DNA from: Jatrophihabitans sp.
GTDB taxonomy: Bacteria > Actinomycetota > Actinomycetes > Mycobacteriales > Jatrophihabitantaceae
NCBI GenBank assembly: GCA_036389035.1
Contig: DASVQQ010000009.1
Coordinates: 57,603 to 121,602 of the forward strand
DNA length: 64,000 nucleotides
Reading direction: 5' to 3'
A model generated the notes under the pieces. The model was not told where the DNA came from. It searched no databases and saw only the letters and a list, made by a program, of their open reading frames with translations. Positions 4,535 to 19,055 of this stretch are shown in pieces (position 1 is the stretch's first letter; each line of letters starts with the position of its first letter). The translations under genes and the position numbers were made by a program.

Positions 4535-5421
4535 CGACAGGAGCGGGAACCGCACCGCACTTGCTTTCACCTCGCCGCTGCCTATAGCCGCTGCCACTTA
4601 GTGGAGTAATGCTTCCACGCTCAGATCTGTCTAGGCAAGAAGTAGACACTTTATCTAGATATATCGTTAGAATCCGACCCAAATGTTCAAAAAATACGTA
4701 GCAGCTCCTAGGCGCTTATATAGATGAAATGCCTATTTGAAGGTCATCATCTTATGGAGAGCTGTATAGCAACTCGCTTAAACTCACTCCTCCAGTGATA
4801 GACAGCTACGCAGGTCCAGGTACTGCGATAGCTCTGCCGCAGTCCTATGAACAGCGGCCTTACCGATGGCACGCGCATGTAGTGCCCGTTGTTCAATCAA
4901 CCGAGGTACATAGCGCGAAGGCATTAGTTGCCTGGCATACTCCGACCAGCACGCGCGCTACACGGTGCTCGGCCTCGACCGATGCGTTCGACCCTAACGA
5001 CCGGTCATAGCTGCCTCCGTACGCAGGCGCTGGTCGAGACATCAAACTAGATCCCTGCAGTACAAGGCGAAAGCTCAACGACAGCATCGAAGCGAGTGCC
5101 CTGCGCACTGTGAGACAGGTAGGTATGTGTTGGGTACTGGTGCCTTCCTATGTCAAGTAGTGGTGACAGATCCGAACCTTCCGGGTACGGTCTGTAACGG
5201 TCGATGCGGGGGGAATCGCGGATGAGAGGCGGTCTGATCAGTGGCAAGACGCGGCCTGTCCGGCCGCGCCTTGGCCCTGGTGATCAAACGCGTGTGTTTA
5301 CGGCCATTCCCATTGACGCAACATTGACTACACCCCCTTCGACCATTGAGGTCCGTACCAGCGCCTTCGTGAATTCCCCTCACGGAACACTGCACGTGCC
5401 TAAGTGCCGGCGGTTCCTGGA
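4535..5421 (+). other. AT-rich intergenic region with no convincing gene
   Basis: Almost 900 bases between phoU and the next gene. Its first half is far more AT-rich than the rest of the window (for example around 4620-4780). Several short ORFs exist, but none has a good ribosome binding site or family resemblance. A GATAGACAG motif near 4797 recurs near 7486, and a related TATAGACAG occurs near 8178. The composition suggests horizontally acquired or decayed DNA at the edge of the phoU-gpm insertion. A promoter for the following gene probably lies in the final 150 bases. Confidence 0.5.
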
Positions 5422-6408
5422 ATGATCGGACCCGACGGCGTCTGCTTATTGCTCTTGGCAACGATGAGTGTCACCTATTCCATCTCGGTTCGGCGGTTAG
5501 AACGCCTTCGGCGCGCCCTCTCTGAAGAAAAAATGCCCAACCTTGTAAGTACTTGGACGTTCGCTGCTGCACTGACCCTGCCACCGCTGTACATCGCCGT
5601 AGTAGTTACAGCCACTTACTTAGCCGAGTGGCCGTCTCGCAGAATCGTTAGACGTGCCACTCCGCTTAAATATCTCTATGGCGGCGTTGCCGCTGCCAGC
5701 TCCTGCATCGTTGCCTCGGCAGTTCTGCACGCAGTAGATGGAGTCGCAGGGGTTCCGCTCGCTATGCTGACCCACTCCGCTGTCAACATCGGCTTGATCG
5801 CTGCGGCAGTGATGCTGGCTCGGCAGAAGCATGTGCTGCGGATGTTCGCGAATCCCAAGGCGCACGCGGCGGAGGCCGCAACGCAATGTCTGGGTATAGC
5901 ACTGGCCGGGCTCCTCAGTTGGCACGTCGCGCTGGGCGTTCTAGTGGTGCCGGCACTGCTGCTCGTCCACCATTGGTCGCTGCGAGAGACAGTCAAGGTC
6001 GAGGAAGCCTTCGACCCGGAAACCCGCCTGTGGTCCGAGAAGGCGTGGATGGTGCAAGCCCAGCAGAAGCTGCACGACGCACGAGGCCACGTCGCCCTGC
6101 TCATGATCGACCCGGACGAGCCCGACCAGGAGCACCTCATCATGCGGGCCATCGAGTCCGGACTGGGCCCATCGGACCTGCTGGGCCGCTACGGCACCCG
6201 GCAGATCGTGGTGCTGATCCCGGTGGGCCGGCCCGAGGCCGGCCCCTTCATGAGCGCCGGCTTCCGAGCGGATCTGGCCGCCGCGGGTGTACATGCGGCC
6301 CTCGGTTGCGCTACCACAGCCGACTCCGAGCTGGAGGCGCTGCTGATCGAGGCGATGTCTGACCTGATGGGCCGGCGCACCGAGGCCGGGGTCAACCGGA
6401 ACTGGTAG
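5422..6408 (+). CDS. Membrane protein with degenerate GGDEF-like domain
   Basis: A 328-residue paralogue of the two membrane GGDEF proteins encoded at 11.8-13.1 and 15.1-16.3 kb. The membrane part is recognisable by LVSTWTFAAALTLPP, which matches TSVWTFAAALVLPP of the second paralogue, but the first 50-60 residues are missing. In the C-terminal domain the A-site reads RYGTRQ where the paralogues have RFGGEE, the I-site Arg is lost and the DxD/helix region is shortened. It therefore cannot be an active diguanylate cyclase by known rules. It may bind ligand or serve as a membrane sensor. A GTG at 5404 is an alternative start. The protein ends VNRNW. Confidence 0.75.
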   Translation: MIGPDGVCLLLLATMSVTYSISVRRLERLRRALSEEKMPNLVSTWTFAAALTLPPLYIAVVVTATYLAEWPSRRIVRRATPLKYLYGGVAAASSCIVASAVLHAVDGVAGVPLAMLTHSAVNIGLIAAAVMLARQKHVLRMFANPKAHAAEAATQCLGIALAGLLSWHVALGVLVVPALLLVHHWSLRETVKVEEAFDPETRLWSEKAWMVQAQQKLHDARGHVALLMIDPDEPDQEHLIMRAIESGLGPSDLLGRYGTRQIVVLIPVGRPEAGPFMSAGFRADLAAAGVHAALGCATTADSELEALLIEAMSDLMGRRTEAGVNRNW

Positions 6409-6436
6409 CAGCAGGAGGGTTAGCGGTCTTCCGCTC

Positions 6437-7009
6437 CTAGCTTTCTTCCGCTCCTTCGATGACCGAGGCCAGCGTGCTCTCCAGGAACGCCAGCACCGAC
6501 GCGAGAGCGGTGAGCCCCTCGGTCCTCGCCGCCCGGGTGCGGTCGCCCAGCTCGAGCAGCAGGTCGGTGACCTGCCGGCGCTCCGCGGTGGTGAAAGCGG
6601 AGATGTCCATCGGCGCCAGTTCCGGCGCCGACGCCTCGGAGGTCGGCGCGGTGAACGCCCGGATCAGTCCGGCCACCGCCTGCGCCTGCTCGATGGTGAG
6701 CGTCCCGGTAGACGCCGGCAGCATGGACGCCAGCAGCGAGCGGTCCTCCGACACGTCGATGTCGAACTGGGTGGCGTAGCTCAGCACCACCTCGCGGGGG
6801 TCGACGCCCAGGGCGCTGGCCGTGCCTTCGATGACCTCGCGGGACTTCGGCCAGCCCCGGACCTCGCCCTTACTGATCTTGCCGAACGTCTGATAGGGCA
6901 CCGAGCCGCCGGAGCGCTCTTCGAGTTGCCGGAGGGTCAAGCCGGTGGCGAGCTTCTGCCGAACGAGCTCGGCGATGGTCGGCACATTTCCGGAGCCGGG
7001 GTCAACCAC
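6437..7009 (-). CDS. XRE-type helix-turn-helix regulator
   Basis: About 190 residues. The N-terminal HTH (LVRQKLATGLTLRQLEERSG, then PYQTFGKISKGEVRGWP) is a Cro/C1-type DNA-binding domain. The C-terminal 100 residues are Ala/Glu/Leu-rich helices without a recognised domain. The GTG at 7009 is preferred because a perfect 6-3-6 palindrome (7083-7097) lies just upstream and looks like an autoregulatory operator. The reading frame also opens from an ATG at 7111, which would place the palindrome inside the coding region. It is convergent with the degenerate GGDEF gene and divergent from the next XRE gene. Confidence 0.75.
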   Translation of the reverse strand: MVDPGSGNVPTIAELVRQKLATGLTLRQLEERSGGSVPYQTFGKISKGEVRGWPKSREVIEGTASALGVDPREVVLSYATQFDIDVSEDRSLLASMLPASTGTLTIEQAQAVAGLIRAFTAPTSEASAPELAPMDISAFTTAERRQVTDLLLELGDRTRAARTEGLTALASVLAFLESTLASVIEGAEES

Positions 7010-7082
7010 GACGCTGATCGACCCCTCTCGGTAAGGCGCGGCGGCTGCCGGGCGGCGGTGCGGGCCGAGCGGTGGCTTGGCG

Positions 7083-7097
7083 TCTACCAAAGGTAGA
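7083..7097. promoter_or_regulatory. Perfect palindrome, candidate XRE operator
   Basis: TCTACC-AAA-GGTAGA is a perfect 15-bp inverted repeat upstream of the leftward XRE gene. A related TCTACCAAG lies at 7163-7171 inside GAGT-N10-ACTC. A second 6-3-6 palindrome occurs at 8179-8193. The size and position fit a Cro/C1-type dimer site. Binding protein is inferred. Confidence 0.5.
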
Positions 7098-7180
7098 GGT
7101 AGCCGACCCATTCGATGCCCCCGTTCTCGGAACTACATGCCGGTAATTGTGATCATGAGTGTCTACCAAGACTCGCCGTT

Positions 7181-7199
7181 TGTCAATCAATACTTGACA
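7181..7199. promoter_or_regulatory. Inverted repeat overlapping a TTGACA -35-like hexamer
   Basis: TGTCAA-N7-TTGACA is a perfect inverted repeat in the divergent region between the two XRE genes. Its right arm is a consensus -35 hexamer pointing toward the rightward XRE gene, although no strong -10 is obvious 17 bases later. It could be an overlapping promoter/operator. Confidence 0.4.
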
Positions 7200-7268
7200 T
7201 ACCTCTAGCTGTCAGGCGACGATTTGAATCATGCACGAGGTCACGGGAGCCCTTGAGGGAGTCGCTGG

Positions 7269-7790
7269 ATGAGGTTGAGAAGTGCCGAGACACTGAGGGC
7301 TCTGATGCGCCAGCAAGGCCTGTCCCTCAGCGGACTGGCTTCGGCTGCCCAGTGCTCGAAGAGCTTCATCTCGCACCTGCTGTCCGGACGCCGCAACACC
7401 TGCACCGACGCGCTGGCCGATCGCATCGCGGCGGCGCTCGACGTGCCCACCCGCGTTATTTTTGTGCCCTCTAAGTCAACCACTGATAGACAGGCTGACT
7501 ATCGGTCGCTACCGCCAGGGGCCGCCGACCCGTCCCACGAGCCCAGCTCGGGCCTGCCGAAAAGCCGCCCCGGCCCGCGGCCTGCCCGTTCTCAGAGCAC
7601 CGAGCGCAAGGCTCGACCCGTCTCCCGCCGCGGCTGGGTACCGCGGCGGGTCCTGTTGGGGAGCAGGGGAAGGGCGGTGGAGTGGCCACCAGGCTCACTC
7701 CACCGCCGCCCGCCCAGCACCTCCCCCAAAGTCCCATCACATCTCATGGAGGTGACGCACCCATGCAGCTTCGAAGCCGCGACGCGCTGA
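7269..7790 (+). CDS. Small XRE-type regulator with uncertain C-terminal extent
   Basis: Residues 1-70 form a Cro/C1 HTH (TLRALMRQQGLSLSGLASAA, then SKSFISHLLSGRRNTC) that is clearly paralogous to the next gene's protein (shared LRS start, HL-GRR and Cys positions). GAGGGAG lies 7 bases before the ATG. The remaining 100 residues are Pro/Arg/Ser-rich, without family character, and span two perfect hairpins. The frame therefore runs through what looks like intergenic DNA and overlaps the next start by 28 bases. The functional protein may be only the HTH part. Confidence 0.6.
   Translation: MRLRSAETLRALMRQQGLSLSGLASAAQCSKSFISHLLSGRRNTCTDALADRIAAALDVPTRVIFVPSKSTTDRQADYRSLPPGAADPSHEPSSGLPKSRPGPRPARSQSTERKARPVSRRGWVPRRVLLGSRGRAVEWPPGSLHRRPPSTSPKVPSHLMEVTHPCSFEAATR
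7624..7650 (+). terminator. Perfect 10-bp hairpin after the second XRE domain
   Basis: CCCGCCGCGG, a 7-base loop, then CCGCGGCGGG. It lies past the HTH-coding part of the preceding ORF. There is no U-tract, as is common for actinobacterial terminators. It could terminate or attenuate transcription into the next XRE/peptide unit. Confidence 0.5.
7673..7707 (+). terminator. Perfect 11-bp hairpin upstream of the third XRE gene
   Basis: GGCGGTGGAGT, a 13-base loop, then ACTCCACCGCC. It begins 22 bases after the previous hairpin and ends 55 bases before the next start codon. Two consecutive perfect stems suggest a terminator pair or an RNA regulatory element in the leader of the XRE-peptide unit. 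Confidence 0.45.
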
Positions 7791-8113
7791 TCATCTGTCT
7801 GGAGGCGAGCGGCATGTCCGAGCGGCAACTCGCGCGGGTCGCCGGACTCGGGCACGCCACCGTCAACCACCTGGTCACCGGCCGCCGCACCCGCTGCTCG
7901 CCCGCGACCGCGGGCGCCATCGAGAAGGCACTCGGCTGTGAGGTCGGGACGTTGTTCGACGGCTCGCCTCCCACCGACCCCCAGTGGCACCGATTCAGCG
8001 CACAGCCGGCAGCCCACCCCCCTGCGAGAGCCGAGCTTCGCCACCAACCGGAACTGAACCAGCGACTGGCCTTCGATCCGGAGAAGCTCGCGGCGATGAG
8101 AGGAGTTCAGTGA
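7763..8113 (+). CDS. Small XRE-type regulator translationally coupled to an 8-residue peptide
   Basis: A 116-residue protein starting at ATG 7763, which is preceded by GGAGGTG (7748-7754). The HTH occupies residues 1-65 (ECLEASGMSERQLARVAG-like helix 2, HATVNHLVTGRRTRC recognition helix) and the C-terminal 50 residues look unstructured. It is a paralogue of the preceding XRE. Its TGA stop overlaps the start of the MTRHWDWD peptide as TGATG, so regulator and peptide should be made together. This resembles regulator-pheromone gene pairs such as ComR/ComS or Rgg/SHP in layout, but no TPR peptide-binding domain is present. Confidence 0.75.
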   Translation: MQLRSRDALIICLEASGMSERQLARVAGLGHATVNHLVTGRRTRCSPATAGAIEKALGCEVGTLFDGSPPTDPQWHRFSAQPAAHPPARAELRHQPELNQRLAFDPEKLAAMRGVQ

Positions 8114-8139
8114 TGACACGTCATTGGGACTGGGACTAA
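8113..8139 (+). CDS. Ultrashort ORF, peptide MTRHWDWD
   Basis: An 8-codon ORF whose ATG overlaps the stop of the XRE gene (TGATG). A GAGAGGAG Shine-Dalgarno lies 7 bases upstream within the XRE 3' end. The peptide follows the pattern of the two arrays at 13.4 and 16.5 kb: Met, two variable residues, His/Asn at position 4, then Trp, here as W-D-W-D. The next downstream gene, gpm, is on the opposite strand, so a leader-peptide role for a downstream gene is excluded. Translation is inferred from coupling and from the family pattern. A RiPP precursor or signalling peptide is possible. Confidence 0.7.
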   Translation: MTRHWDWD

Positions 8140-8178
8140 ACGAGGTCGAACTCTCGTCATCCAACCGCCTGAGCCCTA

Positions 8179-8193
8179 TAGACAGAGTGTCTA
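8179..8193. promoter_or_regulatory. Perfect 6-3-6 palindrome at the end of gpm
   Basis: TAGACA-GAG-TGTCTA, the same geometry as the palindrome at 7083-7097 and with related TCTA half-sites. It overlaps the gpm stop codon and follows the peptide ORF by 39 bases. It may be a regulator site or part of a short terminator between convergent genes. Confidence 0.35.
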
Positions 8194-8949
8194 CTTCCCT
8201 TGGTTGGCCACTCCTTGGATGGCGGCCTCGGCGGCGGCCGGGTCCAGGTACTCGGCCGGCCGCACCGGCAGCATCGTGACGGCGTCGAGCTCGTAGCGCA
8301 GCGGGATCCCGGTGGGGACGTTCAGCGACACCACCGCCTCGTCGCTCAGGCCGTCCAGGTGCTTGATCATCGCGCGCAGTGAGTTGCCGTGCGCGGCCAG
8401 CAGCACGGTGCCGTGGCGCAGGTCGGGCACGATGGCGTCGTAGTAGTACGGCAGCATCCGCTCCACCACGTCGGCCAGGCACTCGGTGCGCGGCACGGTG
8501 GTCAGCAGGTCGGCGTAGCGCTCGTCACCGACCTGGCTGTACTGGTCGTCCTCGGCCAGCGGCGGAGGCGGCACGTCATAGGACCGGCGCCACAGCATGA
8601 ACTGCTCGTCGCCGAACTCGGCCCGGACGGCCGCCTTGTCCTTGCCCTGCAGCGCGCCGTAGTGGCGCTCATTGAGCCGCCAGCTGCGCCGCACCGGAAT
8701 CCAGTGCCGGTCAGCGGCGTCCAGCGACAGCTCGGCGGTGCGGATCGCCCGGCGCAGCAGGGACGTGTGCACCACCTCGGGCGCCAGGCCATGCTCGCGC
8801 AGCAGCTCCCCCGCCCGCCGGCCCTCCTCCACACCGGTCGCGGTCAGGTCGACGTCGACCCAGCCGGTGAACAGGTTCTTGCGGTTCCAGTCGCTCTCGC
8901 CGTGGCGAAGCAGCACTAGCGTCTTGGTGGCGGCAGTGGCGGCAGTCAT
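8191..8949 (-). CDS. gpmA: 2,3-bisphosphoglycerate-dependent phosphoglycerate mutase
   Basis: A 252-residue glycolytic enzyme interconverting 3- and 2-phosphoglycerate. The [20 protein letters not shown] block carries the phospho-His, [14 protein letters not shown] is the substrate loop and [17 protein letters not shown] carries the second catalytic His. Length matches GpmA. The gene keeps its core position between phoU/senX3 and mshA, although phoU is now about 3.7 kb away because of the accessory insertion. Confidence 0.97.
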
Positions 8950-9058
8950 GAACCCAATCCTGCCAGGTCACCGCGCACCGGCTCAGCGGAGCCAGCCGAC
9001 GACCCAGCCCATCAAGCCAGTCCGACGACCCAGCCCAACGAGCCCCAGCCGATCCAGC

Positions 9059-9580
9059 TCAGCGAGCGCGCTTGACGAAGCTCTCGAAGGCGGCGAGATT
9101 GGCCATCGGCTCGCCCCGGCTCTCCCGCCAGGCCCACTCCCGCTTGATCGAGGAGCCGAAGCCGAGTTCGAGCAACGTGTTGAACGCCGAGTCGGCGTAG
9201 TCGAGCACCACCCCGAGCAACCGGTCGATCGACTGCGGGGTCACCGCGGCCAGCGGCCACCGGCCGGTCAGGTAGATGTCGCCGCTGTCGTCGATCGACC
9301 AGTACACCCCGAACATCCGGGCGTTGTGCGTCAGCAGCCAGCCATGCACCTGCTCGTGGTTCTCCTCGGGCTTGCGCACCACGAACGCCTCGACCGCCAG
9401 CCCCTGCCCGCCGACGACCAGCCAGCAGGCGGTCTTCAGGCGCTTTTGGCCGGGAAGGTTGGCGACGAACGCCCCGGGCTGGGGCTCCTGGTGCTCCACC
9501 TCCGCCTCGACCAGCGCCTGCCTGATCACGGCGACGGCCGCGGCCTGCTCGTCCGGGCCGGCGGGCCGGTCAGCCGTCAC
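9059..9580 (-). CDS. YbjN domain protein (sensory transduction regulator family)
   Basis: A 173-residue soluble protein starting at GTG 9580, where GTGA overlaps the mshA stop. The YbjN-type chaperone-like fold is suggested by [20 protein letters not shown], by the [19 protein letters not shown] region and by the helical C-terminus ending SFVKRAR. The same gene follows mshA in mycobacteria (Rv0487). Biochemical role is unknown; coupling implies co-expression with mycothiol synthesis. Confidence 0.85.
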
Positions 9581-10944
9581 CGCGAGCCCGAGCCGGTCAG
9601 CGCCAGCGAGCCGAACTCGGCCACCGCGTCCCGGTAGGCGCCCAGCAGGCCGTCCGCGGTGTGCCGCCACGAGAACTGCTCGGCGTGCAGTCGCGCCGCC
9701 GCGCCGAAGGCGGCCCGCCGGGCCGGCTCGCGCAGCAACGAGCCGAGCGCGCCGGCCCAGTCCTCGGTGCGGTGGCTGTCCACCAGGGTGCCGGTCCGGC
9801 CGTCCAGCACGGCGGTCCGCAGACCACCCACCGCGGCGGCGACCACTGGCACGCCGCAGGCCTGGGATTCCAGCGCCACCAGGCCGAAGGACTCGTTGTA
9901 GCTGGGGACCACGGTCAGGTCCGCCGCGGTGTAGAAGTCGGCCAGCAGCGACCGGGACGCGGGCGGCTCGAACCGGACCCGGTCAGCGATTCCCAGCTCG
10001 GCCGCCAGCCGCGGCAACGCCAGCGGGTCATCCACCCCGGAGCCGCTCGGCGCTCCCACGATGACCACCTGCAACCGCCGCGCCAGGTCTTGATCCTCGG
10101 CGACCAGCTGAGCGGCCGCCCGAAGCAGGACGTCCGGCGCCTTCAGCGGCTGCAGGCGGCCGACGAACAGCAGCACCAGCGCGTGCGCCGGGATGCCGAG
10201 CCGGTCGCGGGCGGCGGCGGCCGGAGCGGGCCGGAAGACGTCCAGGTCCACGCCGGGCGGCACCGTCACGATCTTGGACGGGTCGGCGTCATACCAGTCG
10301 ACCAGTTGCCGGGCCTCGTCGTCGGTGTTGGCGATCAGCCGGTCCGCCTCGGCGATCACCTGTTGCTCCCCGACGATCCGGGCCAGCGGCTCGGGGGCGT
10401 CACCGGCGGCCAGGTACTCGTTCTTGGTGCGGCCCAGGGTGTGGGCGGTGTGCACCAGCGGGACGCCCCACCGTTCCCGGGCCAGCCATCCGACCTGCCC
10501 GGACAGCCAGTAGTGCGAGTGCACCACGTCGTACCAGCCGGGCTCGTGCTGGGCCTCCGCGCGCAGCACCGCCGCGCTGAAGGCACACAGCTGGCCCGGC
10601 AGGTCCTGCTTGGACAGCCCCTCGAAAGGGCCGGCCGTCACGTGCCGGACGATCACCCCCGGCTCGACCGCGACCACCTTGGGCAGCTCGGAGGAGGTGG
10701 CCCGGGTGAAGATCTCGACCGCCACGCCGGAGTCGGCCAGCCTGCGGGCCGTCTCGAGCACGTAGACGTTCATGCCGCCGGCGTCGCCGCCGCCGGGCTG
10801 CTCCAGCGGCGAGGTGTGCACGCTGAGGGTGGCCACCCGCTTCGGCAGTGCGCCGTGCCTGGTTATCCGCGCTGACATCTCGCGTCGCACGCCCTGTCGC
10901 ACATCGCCCCCCTGGTTCGGTGTCTGGCCCCGCTCTGTGGCCAC
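9577..10944 (-). CDS. mshA: D-inositol-3-phosphate glycosyltransferase (mycothiol synthesis)
   Basis: A 455-residue GT4 (GT-B fold) enzyme that transfers GlcNAc from UDP-GlcNAc to inositol 3-phosphate, the first step of mycothiol synthesis. Visible motifs are [20 protein letters not shown] (donor/acceptor loop), [21 protein letters not shown] and [17 protein letters not shown] (nucleotide-sugar binding EX7E). The N-terminal 33 residues before [10 protein letters not shown] are variable, so the true start could be internal at MSARITRHG. It is the first gene of an operon with ybjN. Confidence 0.95.
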
Positions 10945-11000
10945 AACGCCTAACCCCCTCCGATCATGCCGCCTTGAGCTGAATCAGTGAGAATGCAGAC

Positions 11001-11762
11001 ATGGCGAGCGCGCGAGGACTGGCAGTGGTGACCGGGGCGTCCAGTGGGATCGGGGCGGCGACGGCCCGCCAACTCGCCGCGGCCGGCTTCACCGTGTGGG
11101 CCTGCGCCCGGCGGGCCGACCGGCTGGCCGAGGTGGCTGCGGCCAGCCCGGCCATCACCGCGGTCAGCCTGGACGTCACCTCACCCGACTCGGTCGCCGA
11201 ACTGGCCGACCGGGTGAGCGCCGAGCCCGACGGCCTGGCGCTGCTGGTCAACAACGCCGGCGGGGCGATCGGGCTCGAACCGGTCGCCGAGGCCGACCCG
11301 GCGGACTGGCTGAGGATGTTCGACACCAACGTGCTCGGGGCGATGCGGCTGACCCAGGCCCTGCTGCCGGCGCTGGAGGCCGGCGGCGGGGGCCACATCG
11401 TGCTCACCGGCTCGATCGCCGGCTACACCGTCTACGAGGGCGGGGCCGGTTACTCGGCGGCCAAGCACGCCGCCCGGGCGATGATGGAGACCCTGCGCCT
11501 GGAGCTGAACGGCCGCCCGGTCCGGGTGTCGGAGGTCGCGCCCGGGCTGGTGGCCACCGAGGAGTTCTCGCTGGTCCGCTTCCGCGGTGACGCAGCCCGC
11601 GCCGCCGCCGTCTACGAGGGGGTCGCCGAGCCGCTGACCGCCGAGGACGTGGCCGACGTCATCACCTTCGTGGCGACCCGGCCGGCCCACGTGAACATCG
11701 ACCTCGCGGTGGTGAAGCCGCTGGCCCAGGCCAGTCCGTACAAGCTCGATCGGCGACGCTGA
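11001..11762 (+). CDS. SDR family NAD(P)-dependent oxidoreductase
   Basis: A 253-residue Rossmann-fold short-chain dehydrogenase. The cofactor loop is TGASSGIG, NNAGG follows, Ser is in LTGSIAG and the catalytic pair is YSAAKHA. Substrate is unknown. It corresponds in position to Rv0484c, between mshA and murB in mycobacteria, so it marks the left border of the accessory module inserted before murB. It is divergent from mshA. Confidence 0.92.
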   Translation: MASARGLAVVTGASSGIGAATARQLAAAGFTVWACARRADRLAEVAAASPAITAVSLDVTSPDSVAELADRVSAEPDGLALLVNNAGGAIGLEPVAEADPADWLRMFDTNVLGAMRLTQALLPALEAGGGGHIVLTGSIAGYTVYEGGAGYSAAKHAARAMMETLRLELNGRPVRVSEVAPGLVATEEFSLVRFRGDAARAAAVYEGVAEPLTAEDVADVITFVATRPAHVNIDLAVVKPLAQASPYKLDRRR

Positions 11763-11790
11763 CCTTTCAGAGAACGACGCGCTGACCCCT

Positions 11791-11839
11791 AAGAGGACGA
11801 CGCCCTCAGAGGACGACGCCCTCAGAGGACGACGCACTC
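11791..11839. repeat. Three tandem 16-17-bp repeats at the GGDEF1 3' end
   Basis: AGAGGACGACGCCCTC occurs three times in a row (third copy with one change), after a degenerate fourth copy near 11770. The repeats cover the stop codon (11822-11824) of the leftward GGDEF gene. They probably arose by slippage, and the C-terminal residues ECVVL are encoded in them. Confidence 0.8.
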
Positions 11840-13096
11840 CACCCGGTCACGGCCGGCGCTCTTGGCCGCGTACAGCGCGCTGTCGGCGACGTGCAGCAAG
11901 CTCTCGACGTCCGCGCCGTTGTTGGGGTAGAGCGCCACCCCGATCGAGGCCGAGAAGCCACCGAGCGGCACCGCGGGCGCGTCCGGGCTGAACACCTCCA
12001 GCTCGCGGATCCGAGCCAGGATCCGGTGGCTGACGGCCCGGGCGGTGGGCATGTCCACCTCGGGCAGGATCGCGACGAACTCCTCGCCCCCGAAGCGGCC
12101 GATGCTGTCGTACTGGCGCAGTTCAGCGGTCAGCCGCTCGGCGACCGCGACCAGGACGGCGTCGCCGACGAGGTGCCCGTGGGTGTCGTTCACGGCCTTG
12201 AACCGGTCCATGTCGATGATCATCAGGGCGACGGTGTGCCGATCGCGAGCAGCGCGGGCGATCTCTTTCTGCGCGACCTGCCGCCAGGCCACGGCATTGA
12301 GCAGGCCGGTCTTGGGGTCGGTGGTGGCGGCCACCTCGAGTTGCTTGATCAACGCGCCGCGCTGCAGCACGACCAGCGGGACGATGCTCAGAAAGCTCAA
12401 CCACGGCGTGAACACCAGCGTCAGGCCGGTCATGGCGCCCAGGCACAGGGTCGCGATCTCGAGCCCGTTCTCTTCGGCGGTGCCGAACAGCGCGCGGACC
12501 GGAAGCGGCCGGGCCGCCAGGAAGATGGCGCCGGCGATCATCGTCGTGTTGACGGCGGTGTAGGCCACCAGCGACAGCAGCACGATCGCGGCCCCGGTGG
12601 CGTCTCCGGACAGGTGGCCAAGGTGCGAGGAGGACAGCTTGACGATGGCTGAGCCGGTGAGGCAGGCCAGCATGACGGTGGCAGCGGTGAACATCTGGCG
12701 GTAGGGGTGGATGCCGGCCCGCAGCCGCAGCACCGTCATGGCCACCGAGATCAACAGCGCCAGCAGCGCCGACAACCCCGACGGCAACGCGATGACCCCG
12801 GCGAACGTCCAGACCGAGGTCATGTCGATCTGGTGGCTGTCAGCCATCCGGATCCGCATCCGCTCGATACGCGGTGAGATCTGCTGGAAGGCGGCGAACA
12901 GGACGGCCAGCACGCCGAAGCGGATCAGGTCTGAACGACTTATGGTGTCAGTCATCAAGGCGAAGACCGTCCAGAGGACGGCTCCGAGTTCGGCCAGGAT
13001 CAGATATTGGGCAAGATCTTTGGGCAGTGACCACAGTTCCCAGGAACGGGGCGCCAACCTACGCCTGTTCGTCCCAGGCGGTGGTGCCACTGTCAT
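11822..13096 (-). CDS. Membrane-bound diguanylate cyclase, module 1
   Basis: A 424-residue protein. Residues 25-245 hold about six to eight transmembrane segments (for example LAQYLILAELGAVLWTVFAL, TSVWTFAGVIALPS) with no recognised sensor family. Residues 255-424 form a complete GGDEF domain: TDPKTGLLN, IDMDRFKAVNDTHGH, I-site RQYD at 327-330 and A-site GGEEF at 336-340. It should make c-di-GMP and be feedback-inhibited. The ATG at 13096 (MTVAPPPG) is preferred over GTG 13138 because it has GGGAG upstream and aligns with the start of the module 2 paralogue. It is divergent from peptide array 1, and I infer that it may sense the peptides. Confidence 0.88.
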   Translation of the reverse strand: MTVAPPPGTNRRRLAPRSWELWSLPKDLAQYLILAELGAVLWTVFALMTDTISRSDLIRFGVLAVLFAAFQQISPRIERMRIRMADSHQIDMTSVWTFAGVIALPSGLSALLALLISVAMTVLRLRAGIHPYRQMFTAATVMLACLTGSAIVKLSSSHLGHLSGDATGAAIVLLSLVAYTAVNTTMIAGAIFLAARPLPVRALFGTAEENGLEIATLCLGAMTGLTLVFTPWLSFLSIVPLVVLQRGALIKQLEVAATTDPKTGLLNAVAWRQVAQKEIARAARDRHTVALMIIDMDRFKAVNDTHGHLVGDAVLVAVAERLTAELRQYDSIGRFGGEEFVAILPEVDMPTARAVSHRILARIRELEVFSPDAPAVPLGGFSASIGVALYPNNGADVESLLHVADSALYAAKSAGRDRVECVVL

Positions 13097-13285
13097 CCCG
13101 CTGTACTCCCGACCCCTTGCAGTGTTGCGTTCCTTCACAGTAACGGCTCAGTCGCGGTGTGTCACCGGGCCCCCGAGATTAGCCGAGTGGGGTGACAGAG
13201 AGCGACCGAGCTACGTAAGATCTGTGACGACCGCGCAGTGTATAGCGCAGAATGCCCAGGCTGGCAACTTAACTCCTGTCCGTCT

Positions 13286-13336
13286 GGTTTGACTCTGCAC
13301 AGGTTTGACGGCGCTATGTTAACATAAAATATACAT
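13286..13336 (+). promoter_or_regulatory. Likely promoter/operator of peptide array 1
   Basis: GGTTTGAC occurs twice (13286-13293 and 13302-13309). It is followed by the perfect palindrome TATGTTAACATA (13315-13326) and by AT-rich -10-like hexamers (TAAAAT at 13325, TATACA at 13330). This is the only AT-rich patch in the intergenic region and lies 31-80 bases before the first peptide start. The direct repeats may bind an activator. Transcription start is not known. Confidence 0.5.
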
Positions 13337-13366
13337 CAGGGCATAGGCCACGCAAGGAGGGCGAGC

Positions 13367-13387
13367 ATGAACAACCACGGTTGGTAG
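13367..13387 (+). CDS. Ultrashort ORF, peptide MNNHGW (array 1, unit 1)
   Basis: Six codons, ATG start and TAG stop, with a consensus AAGGAGG at 13354-13360 spaced 6 bases from the start. First of four tandem units whose encoded peptides stay nearly identical while their start and stop codons differ. It is the unit nearest to the AT-rich promoter-like region. The product is too short for signal sequences or domains. A precursor of a modified or secreted Trp peptide is inferred. Confidence 0.8.
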   Translation: MNNHGW

Positions 13388-13477
13388 AGCCTGGCGCAGG
13401 TCCAGAAATACCATCCAGCCCAAAAAAGTTCGGCGACACTCCCCCGTTGCCGAATCGAGAAATGAAAGCAGGCCCAC

Positions 13478-13498
13478 GTGAACAACCACGGCTGGTAG
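13478..13498 (+). CDS. Ultrashort ORF, peptide MNNHGW (array 1, unit 2)
   Basis: GTG start, TAG stop, same peptide as unit 1 but with GGC instead of GGT for Gly. The upstream purine stretch GAAAGCAGG is a weaker ribosome binding site. It starts 111 bases after unit 1; the longer spacer contains no other recognisable element. The synonymous difference and changed start codon argue for selection on the peptide. Confidence 0.75.
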   Translation: MNNHGW

Positions 13499-13547
13499 CC
13501 CGCAGCACACCTAGCCCCCGTCCGAACCCACGAACGAAAGGGCCACC

Positions 13548-13568
13548 GTGAGCAACCACGGCTGGTAA
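13548..13568 (+). CDS. Ultrashort ORF, peptide MSNHGW (array 1, unit 3)
   Basis: GTG start, TAA stop, preceded by GAAAGGG (13536-13542). It starts 70 bases after unit 2. Its upstream spacer shares CAGCACACCT and CCCCGTCC with the spacer before unit 4, showing that the units arose by tandem duplication. Confidence 0.77.
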   Translation: MSNHGW

Positions 13569-13618
13569 AACCGACAGCACACCTGCACCCCGTCCAGCAC
13601 GAACGGAAAGAACCCTTC

Positions 13619-13639
13619 ATGACCGACCACCGTTGGTGA
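13619..13639 (+). CDS. Ultrashort ORF, peptide MTDHRW (array 1, unit 4)
   Basis: ATG start, TGA stop, with GGAAAG at 13605-13610 spaced 8 bases. It starts 71 bases after unit 3. It is the most divergent member, yet His4 and the terminal Trp are kept. The 3' end lies 26 bases from the stop of the convergent MFS gene. Confidence 0.77.
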   Translation: MTDHRW

Positions 13640-13665
13640 TCCGCCGATCGCGGAGAAGCCGTCGG

Positions 13666-14940
13666 CTACCGGTGTCCTTCGATCAGCTCTGCTGAGCCAT
13701 TCCTGCTCCAGAGCACGGTGAACCACACCGCCAGTGCCGCCGCCACCCCGCCGGCCAGACCAACCGCTGTGGCGGCCCCGAACCGGCTCGCCACCAGTCC
13801 GCCCAGCAGGATCCCGATTCCCTGGGCAGCAAGCAGGCCCGACGCCGCGAATCCGATTGCCTGTGCTCGGCGGCTGTCCGGAACGGCACGGACGTACTCG
13901 GTGACGACCTGCACCTGATAGGCAGTGGCCGCGCCGCTGAGCCCCCAGAGCACGATCGACACCGCGATACCGGGACGCAGCCAGCAGGCCACCAGCGGCA
14001 ACCCGCTGAGCATGGCGAGCACGCACATCCATTTCGGCCTGAGCGCGTCGGGAACGAAGCGCAGGAACAGATAGGTGCCGAGCGCGGTGCCGGCCGGACC
14101 GGAAGCCATCAACAGGCCGATGCCCACGGCGCCGGCTCCGAGCGAGTGCGCGTAGGGCGGCGCGACCCCTTCGGGCACCACGAGGAGCCCCAGCAACCAC
14201 GAGAAGCCGAGCAGCGTGCGCAGCTTCGGGTCCTTCGCGACCAGTTTGGCCCCCAGCGCGATGGAGGCGAGGTAACTGTGCTCGGCGGCTCCCGCGGTCG
14301 GCGCCGGCCGGCGGTGGACGCCGAGGCTGATGAACAGCGCCGACAGCCCGAAGGTCAGCGCGTTGATCCCCAGGCTGGCCTGGGCGCCGATCGCCGCCAC
14401 CGTCACACCGCCGAAGGCGAACCCGCCCAGCTGCGCCAGCTGGTTGGTGATGGTTCGCAGCCCGGTTCCGACCACGAAGGCCTCTCCGGACAGGATCTCG
14501 GGGATCAGAGCCGACTCGGCAGCGCTGAAGGGCGAGCCCGCGAGCACCGCGAAGACCAGCAGCGTGCAGACCGTCCACAGCGGCACGCCAGGGATGGCCA
14601 TCACGCCGAGCAGGACCGCGCGAATCAGGTCAGCGGCGATCATCACCCGGCGGCGGGGCAGCCGGTCGGCCAGTCCTGACAGAAACGCGCCGCCGATCAA
14701 GGCCGGCAGGAAGGTGAGGGAATAGGTCAGAGCGGTCAGCAGCGCGGAGGAGGTCCGTTCGAACACCATGATCGACAGCGCGACCCGGGCGAGCTGATCG
14801 CCGGCCATCGACTGCGCGTCGGCCAACCAGAGCACCCGGAACTCTGGAACCCGAAGCACGTCGAGGAACGAGACCCGACGAGCAGATATTACTTTGTGCA
14901 CGTTCGGGATCATCCTCGCCTTCGGTGACACGGTAACCAT
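13666..14940 (-). CDS. MFS exporter, module 1
   Basis: A 424-residue major facilitator protein with 12 predicted transmembrane segments. The loop 2-3 motif is SGLADRLPRRRVM and the N-terminus is EFRVLWLADAQSMAGDQLAR, as in the EntS-like MFS_3 group of exporters. It is about half identical by eye to the module 2 exporter. It is convergent with peptide array 1, the same arrangement as in module 2, so export of the array peptide or its product is the natural inference. The start is uncertain: ATG 14940, ATG 14913 or a nearby GTG. Confidence 0.88.
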   Translation of the reverse strand: MVTVSPKARMIPNVHKVISARRVSFLDVLRVPEFRVLWLADAQSMAGDQLARVALSIMVFERTSSALLTALTYSLTFLPALIGGAFLSGLADRLPRRRVMIAADLIRAVLLGVMAIPGVPLWTVCTLLVFAVLAGSPFSAAESALIPEILSGEAFVVGTGLRTITNQLAQLGGFAFGGVTVAAIGAQASLGINALTFGLSALFISLGVHRRPAPTAGAAEHSYLASIALGAKLVAKDPKLRTLLGFSWLLGLLVVPEGVAPPYAHSLGAGAVGIGLLMASGPAGTALGTYLFLRFVPDALRPKWMCVLAMLSGLPLVACWLRPGIAVSIVLWGLSGAATAYQVQVVTEYVRAVPDSRRAQAIGFAASGLLAAQGIGILLGGLVASRFGAATAVGLAGGVAAALAVWFTVLWSRNGSAELIEGHR

Positions 14941-15058
14941 AGGAGCAGGTCAGCGCATACACCTAGTGCACATTCGAACACAGGATTGCAGGTGATTCAG
15001 CCAACACGGCGTATCAGGATTCCAGACAGGCCCGAGCGGATACCGGAAAGCGCTACCG

Positions 15059-16342
15059 CTACTCAGACTGGGCGCACACCACGACCCGGTTGCGCCCGCC
15101 TCGCTTGGCCGCGTACAGCGCCGAGTCGGCGGCGTGCAGCAGGTCCTGGAGTTCGGCGCCGTGCTCGGGGTAACAGCTGATGCCGATCGAGGCCGACAAC
15201 CCGATCAGGGCCGGCTGGCCCTCGACCGGGCTGGCCACCTCGAGCAGCTGGACCTGCTGCCGGATGCGCTCGGAGATTCCGACCGCTGTCAGCTGATCCA
15301 CCCCGGACAGCATCGCCACGAATTCCTCACCACCGAACCGGCCGATCGCGTCGTACTGTCGCAACTCGTGCACCAGGCAGTCGGCGACCGCCCGGAGCGC
15401 GGAGTCGCCGGCCATGTGACCATGGGTGTCGTTCACCAGCTTGAAGTTGTCCATGTCGATGATCAGCAACGCGGCGGCCTCGTGCTCACGGCGGGCCCGG
15501 GCAAGCTCGCGTTGAGCCATGTGCTGCCAGGTCGCGGCGTTGAGCAGCCCGGTCTTGGAGTCGGTGGTGGCCGCGATCTCGAGCTGCTTGGTGAGCACAC
15601 TGCGCTGCAGTACGAACAGCGGCGGCACCACCAGCACGCTCAGCAGCGGCTGATTGGCCAGCGCCAGCGCGGTCAGCCCGCCGAGGCAGAGGGTGGCGAA
15701 CTCCAGGGTCACGTCCTGCCGGTTCTCCAGCAGCGCACTCAACTTGACGGGTCGGACCGCCAGGTAGATCGCCACGAACAGGACGACGAAGTTCACGCTC
15801 GCGTAGACCAGCATCGCCACCACGACGGCCCCGACCGCCCAGAACGCCTGGTCGGTGGCGCTGACCCCGGCCGGAAAAAGGTTTAGGACGAGTCGGGCGC
15901 TCAGGCACGATGCGATCACCACCGCCGCGCCGAACACCTGGCGGTAGGCCCGCATGCCACTATCCCGCTCGTGACGCAACCAGGCATAACCGAGCACGAC
16001 CGCGCACAGCAGCACGGTCAATGACGGAGGCAGGACCAGAGCTGCGGCAAATGTCCACACTGAGGTCATATCGACGTGGCCGTAGTCTGCCAACCTGATG
16101 CGCAACCGGGCAATTCGGTTGGAAGTTTCTTCGAACACCACCCACAACCCGAGCAGGATCGCGATGCGGGCCAGATCGGACACAACGGGTTCAGTGTTGA
16201 TTATCAGACAGAAAGCCACTAAGAACATCACTGCGTCGACAGTCAGCACGAACGCCAGCATCGCCCGCGGGGTAGCCCAGAGGTCCCACGAGCGGACCCT
16301 TGCCAGCGGCGAAATCGGTGCGCCGCGTGCTGTTCTAGACAT
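15059..16342 (-). CDS. Membrane-bound diguanylate cyclase, module 2
   Basis: A 427-residue paralogue of the module 1 cyclase with the same architecture: SWDLW motif near the N-terminus, about six to eight transmembrane segments, then a full GGDEF domain with TDSKTGLLN, IDMDNFKLVNDTHGH, I-site RQYD and A-site GGEEF. Synthesis of c-di-GMP is expected. The start at ATG 16342 (MSRTARGAP) is chosen because GGTGGGGA precedes it and because it matches the N-terminal length of the paralogue; the frame opens as far as 16474. It is divergent from peptide array 2. Confidence 0.88.
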   Translation of the reverse strand: MSRTARGAPISPLARVRSWDLWATPRAMLAFVLTVDAVMFLVAFCLIINTEPVVSDLARIAILLGLWVVFEETSNRIARLRIRLADYGHVDMTSVWTFAAALVLPPSLTVLLCAVVLGYAWLRHERDSGMRAYRQVFGAAVVIASCLSARLVLNLFPAGVSATDQAFWAVGAVVVAMLVYASVNFVVLFVAIYLAVRPVKLSALLENRQDVTLEFATLCLGGLTALALANQPLLSVLVVPPLFVLQRSVLTKQLEIAATTDSKTGLLNAATWQHMAQRELARARREHEAAALLIIDMDNFKLVNDTHGHMAGDSALRAVADCLVHELRQYDAIGRFGGEEFVAMLSGVDQLTAVGISERIRQQVQLLEVASPVEGQPALIGLSASIGISCYPEHGAELQDLLHAADSALYAAKRGGRNRVVVCAQSE

Positions 16343-16396
16343 TTCCCCACCCGGTTGTCTTGCCTCAGAAGCTAGTGGATCGCGGTCTGGTTTGTC

Positions 16397-16444
16397 ACCT
16401 GACACCCACCCATAACCAGGTAACCACCTGATACCACCCATACC
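16397..16444 (+). promoter_or_regulatory. Direct and inverted repeats upstream of peptide array 2
   Basis: A 19-21-base motif is repeated (16397-16417 and 16426-16444, both beginning ACCTGA and ending CCCATAACC or CCCATACC). The junction forms the inverted repeat CAGGT-AACC-ACCTG (16417-16430). The location 45-90 bases before the first start codon fits a regulator binding region for array 2 and/or the divergent cyclase gene. Confidence 0.45.
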
Positions 16445-16488
16445 GCTACTTAGCCGTTGCGAAGATGCGCCCAAAGGAGGTCAGACAG

Positions 16489-16515
16489 ATGCTCTACAAC
16501 TGGCGCTGGCCCTAA
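16489..16515 (+). CDS. Ultrashort ORF, peptide MLYNWRWP (array 2, unit 1)
   Basis: Eight codons, ATG to TAA, with a consensus AAGGAGG (16474-16480) spaced 8 bases. It is the first of three units encoding MLxNWxWP. Like array 1 it is divergent from a membrane GGDEF gene and convergent with an MFS gene. Two Trp residues separated by one residue resemble the cross-linked core of some P450-modified ultrashort RiPPs, but no P450 gene occurs in the window. Confidence 0.82.
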   Translation: MLYNWRWP

Positions 16516-16559
16516 ACCGCAGCCTTTCCCGACCGATCAAGTGCGTGAGGAGGCTCGGC

Positions 16560-16586
16560 ATGCTCAAAAACTGGCGCTGGCCCTAA
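16560..16586 (+). CDS. Ultrashort ORF, peptide MLKNWRWP (array 2, unit 2)
   Basis: ATG to TAA with GAGGAGG (16547-16553) spaced 6 bases. It starts 71 bases after unit 1. Only residue 3 differs from unit 1 (Lys for Tyr), while the spacer between units is much less conserved. Confidence 0.82.
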   Translation: MLKNWRWP

Positions 16587-16621
16587 CCCGCAAGCTGTTC
16601 AACGACTGCGAGGAGGACACG

Positions 16622-16648
16622 TTGCTCGGCAACTGGAACTGGCCCTGA
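16622..16648 (+). CDS. Ultrashort ORF, peptide MLGNWNWP (array 2, unit 3)
   Basis: TTG start and TGA stop, with GAGGAGG (16610-16616) spaced 5 bases. It starts 62 bases after unit 2. Residues 3 and 6 vary, whereas Leu2, Asn4, Trp5, Trp7 and Pro8 are invariant across the array. The stop codon directly abuts a perfect hairpin. Confidence 0.8.
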   Translation: MLGNWNWP

Positions 16649-16666
16649 CCACCGCTCAGGCGGTGG
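16649..16666. terminator. Bidirectional hairpin between array 2 and MFS gene
   Basis: CCACCGC-TCAG-GCGGTGG begins one base after the TGA of the last peptide ORF. Its loop contains the stop codon of the convergent MFS gene (16656-16658). It is well placed to end both transcripts. Confidence 0.65.
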
Positions 16667-17990
16667 ACCGGTCCTCGGCGATCCGCTCAGGTTGGGTGGG
16701 GAGCATCACCGGTTCGGCCAACTCCGGCTGCAGCCGTGCTGGGGTGGTTCGATGCCAGCGCCAGGACAGCACCACCGCGAGCGCCGTGCCGAGCAGGCCG
16801 GCGCTCGCCACGGCCCCGTTGACCCCCCACACACTTGCGACAATGCCACCGGCCAGGATGCCGAAACCCTGCACGGCAAGCAGGCCGGAGGACGCGATGC
16901 CGATAGCCTGCCCGCGCTGCTCGTCCGGCACCGTTCGGACGAACTCGGTGATCACCTGAACCTGATAGCCGAAGAACAACCCGGCAGCCGCCCACAGCAG
17001 CAGTGAGAAGACCAGGTTCGGATTCAGGGCGCACAGCCCCAGGGGCACCCCGACGCCGGCAGCCATCGGGCCCATCCAGACCGAGCGGATCCTGCTCGGC
17101 ACGAAGCGGACCCACAGGTAGGTGCCGAGCGCGGTGCCGGCTGGAATCGCTGCCATCAACAGGCCGGTGGCGACCGCGTCATGGCCCAGGTTGTCGGCAT
17201 AGGGAGCGGCGACCCCCTCGGGCACCACGTACAGCCCCGCCAACCAGGACAGCCCCACCAGGATGCGCAGTCTCGGGTTATGAAAGATCAGTCGCAGGCC
17301 CGAGGACACCCCGCTCAGAAAGGTCGGGCCGATGCTGTCCTGCGCAGCCGAGGTGGCGGCCGCCGCCGGTCGGGGCTTGATCGCCACCATGATCAACACC
17401 GCGGACAGCGCGAAGGTGACGGCATCCAGTGCTAGGCCGGCCCGGGCGCCGACCAGCGCGATGAGCAGGCCGCCACCGGCAAAGCCGGCCAGCTGGGCAA
17501 CCTGGTTGGTGATGGTGCGCAGGCCGGTGCCCACTATGTAGTACTCACCCTCGAGGATGATCGGCATCAGCGAGGACTCCGCTGCTATGAACGGAGCCTC
17601 GGTCAGCACCGCCAGCACCAGCAGGGCGCACAGCAGCCAGATCGGCACCCCCGGGATCGCCATGCAGCCCAGCAGCACCGCGCGTGCCACGTCGCAGCCC
17701 ACCATCACCTGGCGGCGCGGCAACCGGTCGGCAAGCCCGGACAGCAGCACGCCGCCGAGCATCGCCGGCAGGAAAGTCAGCGCGTAGGTGAGCGCGGTGA
17801 GCAGGGCCGAGGCGGTCTGCTGGAACACCAGCACCGACAACGCCACCCGGGCGATTTGATCACCGATCGCCGATTGGGCATCAGCGAACCACAGCACCCG
17901 GAATTCGCGAATTCGGAGGACATCAGCGAAGGTGACGCGCTCGCTGGCCAACCCGACCTCGCAATTTCGTGGTGTCCGATGTGGGTTCAT
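16656..17990 (-). CDS. MFS exporter, module 2
   Basis: A 444-residue, 12-segment major facilitator transporter closely related to the module 1 exporter (shared EFRVLWxADAQS, LLTALTY, SGLADRLPRR, VVPEGVAAPYA and YQVQVVTE/YQVQVITE-type blocks). It is convergent with peptide array 2 and separated from it by a single hairpin. Export of the octapeptide or its processed form is inferred from the twice-repeated arrangement, not shown by sequence. It starts at ATG 17990. Confidence 0.88.
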   Translation of the reverse strand: MNPHRTPRNCEVGLASERVTFADVLRIREFRVLWFADAQSAIGDQIARVALSVLVFQQTASALLTALTYALTFLPAMLGGVLLSGLADRLPRRQVMVGCDVARAVLLGCMAIPGVPIWLLCALLVLAVLTEAPFIAAESSLMPIILEGEYYIVGTGLRTITNQVAQLAGFAGGGLLIALVGARAGLALDAVTFALSAVLIMVAIKPRPAAAATSAAQDSIGPTFLSGVSSGLRLIFHNPRLRILVGLSWLAGLYVVPEGVAAPYADNLGHDAVATGLLMAAIPAGTALGTYLWVRFVPSRIRSVWMGPMAAGVGVPLGLCALNPNLVFSLLLWAAAGLFFGYQVQVITEFVRTVPDEQRGQAIGIASSGLLAVQGFGILAGGIVASVWGVNGAVASAGLLGTALAVVLSWRWHRTTPARLQPELAEPVMLPTQPERIAEDRSTA

Positions 17991-18032
17991 ACGTTAGCCG
18001 GTGACCGGCTAACTACGCACGGTATCGGATAG

Positions 18033-19055
18033 TTAAAAAGTACAATTTCGAAGATGCGCCTCGGGCCCGAGCCGGATACCGAACCTGGCCTGGACCCCGG
18101 CGCGGATTTCGGCGGCGAGTGCCAGCAATTCCGCGGTGGTGGCACCGCCACGATTGGTCAGGGCCAGCGTGTGCTTGGTCGAGACCGACACCGTGCCGCG
18201 GCCCCGATCCAGCCCCCAACCGCGTGGAAAACCGGCCTGCTCGATGAGCCAGGCAGCCGACAACTTCGTCCGCCCGTCGGTCTGCCAGCGCGGGCAGCCC
18301 TCGGCCGCGGCCGGCACCTCGTCCAGCAGTGGGTTGACGAAGAACGACCCGACGCTCCAGCTGTCGTGATCGGCCTCGTCCAGCACCATCCCCTTGGATC
18401 GCCGCAGTTCCAGCACGGTGGCGCGGACCGCGTCCAGCGGGGCGGTGGCGCCGGGCTCGATGCCGAGCCGGTTGGCCAGTTCCAGGTACCGGATCGGCCC
18501 GGACCAGGTGCTGCGGGTCAACCGGAACGTCACCTCCAGGACTACAAACCGGTCGGTGTGCTTGAACGCCGAGCTGCGAAAGCCGAACTCGCACCGCTCG
18601 GGTGACCAGCACTGAACCGTCCGGCTCTGGCGGTCATAGATCCGCAGCCCGGTCAGGAAGTCGGCGACCTCCGAGCCGTAGGCGCCGACGTTCTGCACCG
18701 GCGTCGCGCCGGTCAGGCCGGGGATGCCCGACATCGTCTCCAGGCCGGCCAACCCGTCGGCGACGGTCCGGGCCACCAACTCGTCCCAGGACACCCCCGC
18801 CGCCACCGTGATCAGCTGCTCGTCATCGACGTCCTGACGGGTGATCGTGTCGGAGGCGACCCGGATCACCAGCCCGGGCCAGCCGGCGTCGCCCACCACC
18901 AGGTTCGAGCCGCCGCCCACCAGCAGGACCGGCTCGTCGGCGGCGTCCGCGGCCGCCACCAGGGCCACCAGCTCGTCGCTGCTGGAGGCGATCTCGATCC
19001 GCCCGGCGGGGCCACCGAGCCGCAGCGTCGTCAACTCGGCAAGGGTGGTGGCCAT
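18033..19055 (-). CDS. murB: UDP-N-acetylenolpyruvoylglucosamine reductase
   Basis: A 340-residue FAD enzyme that reduces UDP-GlcNAc-enolpyruvate to UDP-MurNAc in peptidoglycan synthesis. Visible motifs are VLLVGGGSNLVV (FAD), GIPGLTGATPVQNVGAYGSEV, WSVGSFFVNP carrying the catalytic Ser, AAWLIEQAGF and the C-terminal Glu region RFGIRLGPEAHL. ATG 19055 fits the normal family length. The open frame continues to 21854 antisense to other genes; that extension is an artefact. Core gene marking the right border of the peptide/GGDEF insertion. Confidence 0.95.
   Translation of the reverse strand: MATTLAELTTLRLGGPAGRIEIASSSDELVALVAAADAADEPVLLVGGGSNLVVGDAGWPGLVIRVASDTITRQDVDDEQLITVAAGVSWDELVARTVADGLAGLETMSGIPGLTGATPVQNVGAYGSEVADFLTGLRIYDRQSRTVQCWSPERCEFGFRSSAFKHTDRFVVLEVTFRLTRSTWSGPIRYLELANRLGIEPGATAPLDAVRATVLELRRSKGMVLDEADHDSWSVGSFFVNPLLDEVPAAAEGCPRWQTDGRTKLSAAWLIEQAGFPRGWGLDRGRGTVSVSTKHTLALTNRGGATTAELLALAAEIRAGVQARFGIRLGPEAHLRNCTF

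Follow-up and report, generated by a model that had tools for sequence, protein, structure and literature searches.

Microcin C derives from mccA, a single-copy gene for a heptapeptide that serves as a toxin precursor; the system requires the ThiF-like protein MccB and uses MccC, a major facilitator superfamily (MFS) protein, as exporter. RRNPP pheromones (PapR, Phr, SHP and arbitrium) are released by cleavage of longer secreted precursors and act by binding to cytosolic receptors with helix-turn-helix (HTH) or tetratricopeptide repeat (TPR) domains. Few membrane diguanylate cyclases have a known ligand and, to our knowledge, no linked, tandemly encoded candidate ligand has been described for any membrane-sensor diguanylate cyclase. 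Biarylitides (bytA/bytO), which are ribosomally synthesized and post-translationally modified peptides (RiPPs), arise in actinobacteria from leader-poor precursor genes of 18 bp that are sometimes multicopy; the precursor has five residues (MxYxY/H, with aromatic residues at positions 3 and 5) and is cross-linked by a P450, as described in PMC13417212. Here, a 64-kb stretch of Jatrophihabitans sp. DNA (assembly GCA_036389035.1, contig DASVQQ010000009.1, hereafter C9; the whole stretch is referred to as the window) was analyzed, in which arrays of ultrashort open reading frames (mini-ORFs) lie between genes for a membrane GGDEF protein (hereafter DGC) and an MFS transporter. We put at about 0.6 the probability that the encoded peptides are secreted signals, exported by the MFS protein and sensed by the membrane diguanylate cyclase.

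Two complete cassettes in the window

As the preliminary description of this DNA had reported, the module is present in two complete copies (11822–14940 and 15059–17990), each formed by a DGC gene on the minus strand, a mini-ORF array on the plus strand and a convergent MFS gene on the minus strand. DGC 1 (11822–13138, minus strand) combines a multi-pass N-terminal domain with a GGDEF domain (Pfam GGDEF, E = 1.5e-42) that carries the motifs RQYD and GGEEF, and its structure model has a mean pLDDT (predicted local distance difference test) of 84.8. DGC 2 (15059–16342, minus strand, start placed at a conserved ATG; Pfam GGDEF, E = 7e-42) is a paralogue with 47% identity to DGC 1. Judging from the GGDEF domain and the GG[DE]EF motif, both are predicted diguanylate cyclases that would synthesize cyclic di-GMP (c-di-GMP). 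The convergent genes encode predicted peptide exporters: MFS transporter 1 (13666–14940, minus strand; Pfam MFS_1, E = 1.4e-20), which matched TIGR00900 with E = 3.6e-37, under that model's cut-off, and MFS transporter 2 (16656–17990, minus strand; Pfam MFS_1, E = 2.8e-25), with a 78% identical orthologue in locus L001 of the Pseudonocardiales metagenome-assembled genome BP_201.

All eight mini-ORFs reported earlier were recovered in place on the plus strand, seven of them in the two DGC–MFS gaps. The array of module 1 consists of MNNHGW (13367–13387), a second MNNHGW with a GTG start (13478–13498), MSNHGW, also with a GTG start (13548–13568), and MTDHRW (13619–13639), which diverges from the other units. 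Module 2 contains MLYNWRWP (16489–16515), whose counterpart in L001 and in genome G002 is MLDNWRWP, followed by MLKNWRWP (16560–16586) and MLGNWNWP, with a TTG start (16622–16648). Ribosome-binding-like sequences had been claimed for all of them and are present, but the Shine–Dalgarno (SD) sequences at 13478 and 13619 are weak. When both strands of the 64 kb were scanned from end to end for tandem mini-ORFs, with no filter for Trp, arrays turned up solely in the two module gaps; 5 of the 7 array units passed its SD rule.

Conservation of the mini-ORFs among relatives

Conservation at orthologous loci, on which the preliminary description had staked its proposal, was found: relatives of the same genus keep MNNHGW, MDNHSW or MNNHSW, MLDNWRWP and MLRNWRWP in place. 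In L001, the orthologous place holds two copies of MLDNWRWP and one of MLRNWRWP. Adjoining MFS and DGC homologues were observed in many relatives among the matches listed, and the loci examined were the best-scoring and hand-picked ones of these, not a random sample. When 19 DGC–MFS gaps were scanned together with the two of the window, reporting Trp peptides only, every gap contained one or more Trp mini-ORFs that follow an SD sequence and run in the opposite orientation to both flanking genes. The peptides vary between species and repeat within a locus (e.g. MNSNSW seven times, MTVVNWS seven times, and MNNVTWR). A finder lacking the Trp filter recovered these arrays and added others, among them an MRDTTWR/S array of up to 13 copies and, in other families, the Trp-less MRNRDN, MRDRGN and MSGRDF.

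To compare with chance, counts were made on a selected, non-random set of 132 deduplicated regions upstream of DGC homologues, which replaced an earlier set of 130 regions (128 of at least 400 nt) that included a few duplicates. Tandem SD-preceded arrays were present in 64/132 regions, as against 1/132 on the opposite strand and none in any of the 20 dinucleotide shuffles. ORFs of 6–8 residues whose SD match spans five or more bases occurred in 104/132 regions (opposite strand, 1; shuffle mean, 7.25), and those containing Trp in 78/132 (opposite strand, 0; shuffle mean, 1.0). Altogether, a peptide could be assigned in 109/132 regions, 64 with arrays and 45 with single units, and none in 23; the array units amounted to 277 including overlapping frames, or 273 excluding them. 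The arrays thus exceed chance, and the ultrashort ORFs are genuine, conserved features. The sequence rules first drawn from the window did not hold across the family: M-x-x-[H/N] is broken by peptides such as MNVWDW, MRGQNW and MNGRED, and Trp, taken to be universal, is present in 66 and absent from 17 of the 83 distinct peptides. In 65 of the 66 peptides with Trp, this residue is one of the final three.

The biggest array seen, in L217 (7061–8320), repeats a unit without Trp about 20 times (as MRSKDL, MHSKDL, MSKDL and similar forms). Nonomuraea gerenzanensis (L223, around 4490) has a single mini-ORF, MVRGVTWT, divergent from a homologue, and five further loci of one family have MLRGVTWI or MLRGVTWT. 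At the cut-offs used, a profile of the DGC membrane domain had matches in 105/397 genomes from the order and in 78/394 from the class. Spread beyond the class was not supported, since among 296 genomes sampled from the phylum the profile matched the own Jatrophihabitans genome only (at a cut-off of E 1e-10). A phage origin was discarded because the membrane domain matched nothing in the phage collection. Plasmids searched with the MFS protein yielded mostly distant Streptomyces pumps, and no arrays appeared in the scan of H1 and H2. On plasmid p1 of Pseudonocardia sp. DSM 110487 (L222, 5449–5585), three copies of MRNHNW with silent AAT/AAC variation lie divergent from the GGDEF gene K1T35_RS47860; the annotated neighbours include a prolyl oligopeptidase gene and no MFS gene.

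Signs of selection on the peptide sequence

Codon changes between neighbouring array units were counted on the first set of 130 regions. There were 134 silent and 61 non-silent changes, for an expectation of 19% silent, with the reservation that the finder demands 60% peptide identity and so favours a silent excess; a cruder count in which mismatched starts were ignored gave 114 vs 266. Adjacent units differ at 3.6, 3.2 and 12.7% of codon positions 1, 2 and 3, respectively, and at 46% of sites in the 15 nt after the stop. As to the identity requirement of the finder, however, 287 of the 293 SD mini-ORFs that lie within array spans are array members. The clearest case of selection on the peptide is L073, where the minus strand from 3037 encodes a single ORF, MQNQGWKSNQGWSVNQGWSVNQGWSANQGWSVNQGWSANQGW, with seven NQGW repeats separated by two-residue spacers and only silent changes inside the motif. 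Such a polyprotein would need a protease, and the last four residues are the likely core. Because of the SD sequences, the codon usage and the NQGW polyprotein, the mini-ORFs are likely translated into finished peptides.

These data bear on the possibility that the arrays act as DNA or RNA, as regulator sites, ribosome-loading decoys or attenuators, with incidental reading frames. The strong SD sequences in the repeats would suit such a role, as would the nearly invariant DNA of single-copy orthologues, although this invariance does not by itself decide between constraint on peptide and on DNA. The silent excess, the NQGW polyprotein and the in-frame stops at constant length argue against it. 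In addition, region 4500–18200 of the window has no Rfam match, which led us to discard a known structured RNA, and an attenuator or leader peptide was rejected for the window, where each array is followed by a convergent gene and has no downstream gene to control; the same arrangement is seen in the other scanned gaps. We consider a nucleic-acid role very improbable.

DGC and MFS proteins are the constant company of the arrays

In 21 loci, DGC and MFS proteins were the only recurring families, with 23 proteins each and at most 4 for any other family. Full-length DGCs with an assigned peptide numbered 85; of these, 56 have an MFS gene within 2.5 kb, on the same strand in 54, and only 6 of the remaining 29 had 2.5 kb of DNA on both sides to look at. 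The GG[DE]EF motif is intact in 85/85 and the RxxD inhibitory-site pattern is present in 76/85.

Two relatives have an array and an MFS gene beside a membrane GGDEF-EAL protein: L202 (4584–7040) with ten units of MQLDGTHWG type, and L203 (9566–12154) with four of MSNGWG. The N-terminus of this protein matches the DGC membrane domain weakly (hhalign probability 53, E = 1.4e-4), and in both loci the array lies upstream of a same-strand gene. In L201 (5401–8100), MRGTDWE and MHGTDWD accompany an MFS gene and are divergent from the gene of a TPR protein of 825 aa, whose NB-ARC match is under its cut-off; the sequence also shows a third unit, MRITEWD.

The composition of these loci is relevant to an alternative in which the peptides are precursors of a modified, RiPP-like or microcin-like natural product that is exported by the MFS protein, while tailoring enzymes are encoded elsewhere and the DGC merely regulates production. 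In some relatives the peptides have a terminal Asn (MRNRDN, MSNRDN, MANRDN), as does the microcin C precursor, and the Jatrophihabitans genome encodes P450s, radical SAM and ThiF proteins. Ultrashort RiPP precursor genes are also known, and according to PMC13417212 the 18-bp biarylitide genes work with P450s that can sit apart. Nevertheless, the 21 loci show no recurring enzyme family next to the arrays, neither P450 nor ThiF matches exist on C9 (the lack of a P450 had been noted before), and the radical SAM matches on C9 are at least 38 kb outside the window. We therefore rejected a RiPP pathway whose P450, radical SAM or ThiF enzyme is encoded nearby and retained an unlinked one, since tailoring enzymes can be unlinked. 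Peptides also diversify along with the cyclase membrane domain, which a mere regulator would not need, and we regard this alternative as unlikely.

Covariation was assessed by comparing peptide distances with those of the partner proteins. For the 85 DGCs, the partial correlation was 0.31 with the membrane domain (permutation maximum, 0.135) and 0.13 with the catalytic domain (permutation maximum, 0.10). When the MFS protein was included (n = 56), values were 0.19 for the membrane domain, 0.04 for the catalytic domain and 0.21 for the MFS protein. These redone values are weaker than those of earlier runs (n = 84: membrane domain 0.40, catalytic domain 0.04; n = 57: 0.22, −0.03 and MFS 0.24). 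Within genomes, none of 36 cassette pairs shares a peptide (23 genomes with at least two cassettes examined). Co-divergence fits a ligand known to both pump and sensor, with kinship only partly controlled. The divergent co-location and the co-divergence of peptide, membrane domain and pump would equally fit an intramolecular partner, that is, a microprotein-like subunit regulating the DGC and the MFS protein from the cytoplasm or the membrane, with no export. Peptides of 6–8 mostly polar residues, led by W, N, R and D, do not resemble a membrane subunit, and arrays of up to 20 units suggest the dose of a diffusible product; neither point is decisive, and we find such a subunit quite improbable. 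Taken alone, the DGC membrane domain is tentatively closest to energy-coupling factor (ECF) S-components, which have a six-helix fold; Foldseek gave no significant match, and no sequence match exists.

Solitary mini-ORFs and XRE genes

The third locus described previously, with a degenerate GGDEF paralogue, was corroborated: a 334-aa protein (5404–6408, plus strand) matches the same membrane-domain profile (E = 8.4e-55) and has no GGDEF match in Pfam. Homologues of equal length exist in G002 and on contig C7 of the same Jatrophihabitans genome. Divergent from this gene is a ninth mini-ORF, MLRQWEWP (5298–5324, minus strand), overlooked in the preliminary description; its SD sequence, GGGGGTG, is below the strict SD rule, and its counterparts in relatives are MSRHWGWP (L181), MLRHGDWP (L182) and MLRNWDWS (L183). 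Upstream of the degenerate paralogue, the minus strand of L183 (5328–6827) has more solitary units (MRHWEW, MRHSDWS), one apparently frameshifted, as if an array were decaying. The Jatrophihabitans genome has seven membrane-domain homologues; a Trp mini-ORF was seen by eye at six and by the strict SD rule at four, and the seventh homologue has an in-frame TGA.

Three XRE-like genes lie at 6437–8113. The first (6437–7111, minus strand) has no Pfam match and is 71–75% identical to genes in L181–L183, and is therefore conserved in the genus. The remaining mini-ORF, MTRHWDWD (8113–8139, plus strand), overlaps by its start the stop of the XRE gene at 7763–8113 (TGATG). The overlap is real, but the coupling read into it went too far: L181 and L183 both keep the homologous XRE gene (XRE2), and MTRHWDWD was not found behind it in either. 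For this reason its membership in the system is uncertain and it may be an orphan. The XRE regulators, once counted as part of the system, were dropped from it, given this absence and because two of the three play no part in any other cassette that was examined.

Proposed mechanism

Mini-ORFs, SD sequences, tandem repeats, the silent excess, the constant DGC and MFS company and the cassette-specific peptides are the sequence-level basis from which we infer translation, export, binding by the membrane domain and a change in the cyclase. Tandem genes of 6–8 codons would yield short, mostly Trp-bearing peptides, the many copies per array raising the dose of a product for which no leader is required. 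The adjoining MFS pump is predicted to export them, and the S-component-like membrane domain of the adjoining GGDEF protein would bind the exported peptide, altering cyclase activity and thereby c-di-GMP synthesis. Given that the peptide diverges along with the membrane domain and the pump, each cassette may constitute a private channel. The arrays belong to a conserved system with paralogous membrane GGDEF proteins and MFS pumps; peptide-to-c-di-GMP signalling, as first suggested, stands as the best available reading of it, with export and response as predicted steps. We give even odds to the broader notion of a new actinobacterial peptide language, in which unprocessed, leaderless 6–8-mers in up to 20 copies, each with its own MFS pump and S-component-like cyclase, serve several private c-di-GMP channels per cell. 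A full-text literature search, with slight coverage of subscription journals and bioRxiv, found no description of such a system.

If true, this would amount to a new mode of communication among bacteria and to a direct route from peptide to second messenger that bypasses kinases. With a candidate ligand written beside each receptor, receptor–ligand pairs could be read from genomes and examined with cheap synthetic peptides, offering a ready collection of orthogonal signalling pairs. It would also reveal a large unannotated gene class, under the length limit of every gene finder.

Comparison with known systems

Like microcin C, the cassettes combine an ultrashort gene with a gene for an MFS exporter, here a predicted one (side by side in 56/85 loci), and some of the relatives' peptides likewise end in Asn. 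They differ in that ThiF matches of the Jatrophihabitans genome are confined to contigs C7, C11 and C15, with none on C9, and in arrays of up to 20 copies as opposed to the single-copy mccA. With RRNPP systems they share short, strain-variable encoded peptides, a dedicated receptor and, as predicted here, export; by contrast, each ORF here equals the peptide, with a membrane cyclase as the candidate receptor, a TPR partner being found beside array and MFS gene in one relative only (L201). Biarylitides, as far as the accessible part of PMC13417212 describes them, are similar in their ultrashort leader-poor genes, aromatic residues, multiple copies and actinobacterial hosts, but that part mentions no DGC partner; none of the 21 P450 matches of the Jatrophihabitans genome is on C9, and the 83 distinct peptides are mostly of 6–8 residues, with 0 of MxYxY/H form. 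ECF S-components (RibU, PanT, ThiT) belong to a transporter and show no sequence match, whereas the domain described here is fused to an enzyme. Finally, the DGCs resemble membrane-sensor diguanylate cyclases in the fusion of intact GGEEF active-site and RxxD inhibitory-site motifs to a multi-pass sensor, and are set apart from them by a linked, tandemly encoded candidate ligand.

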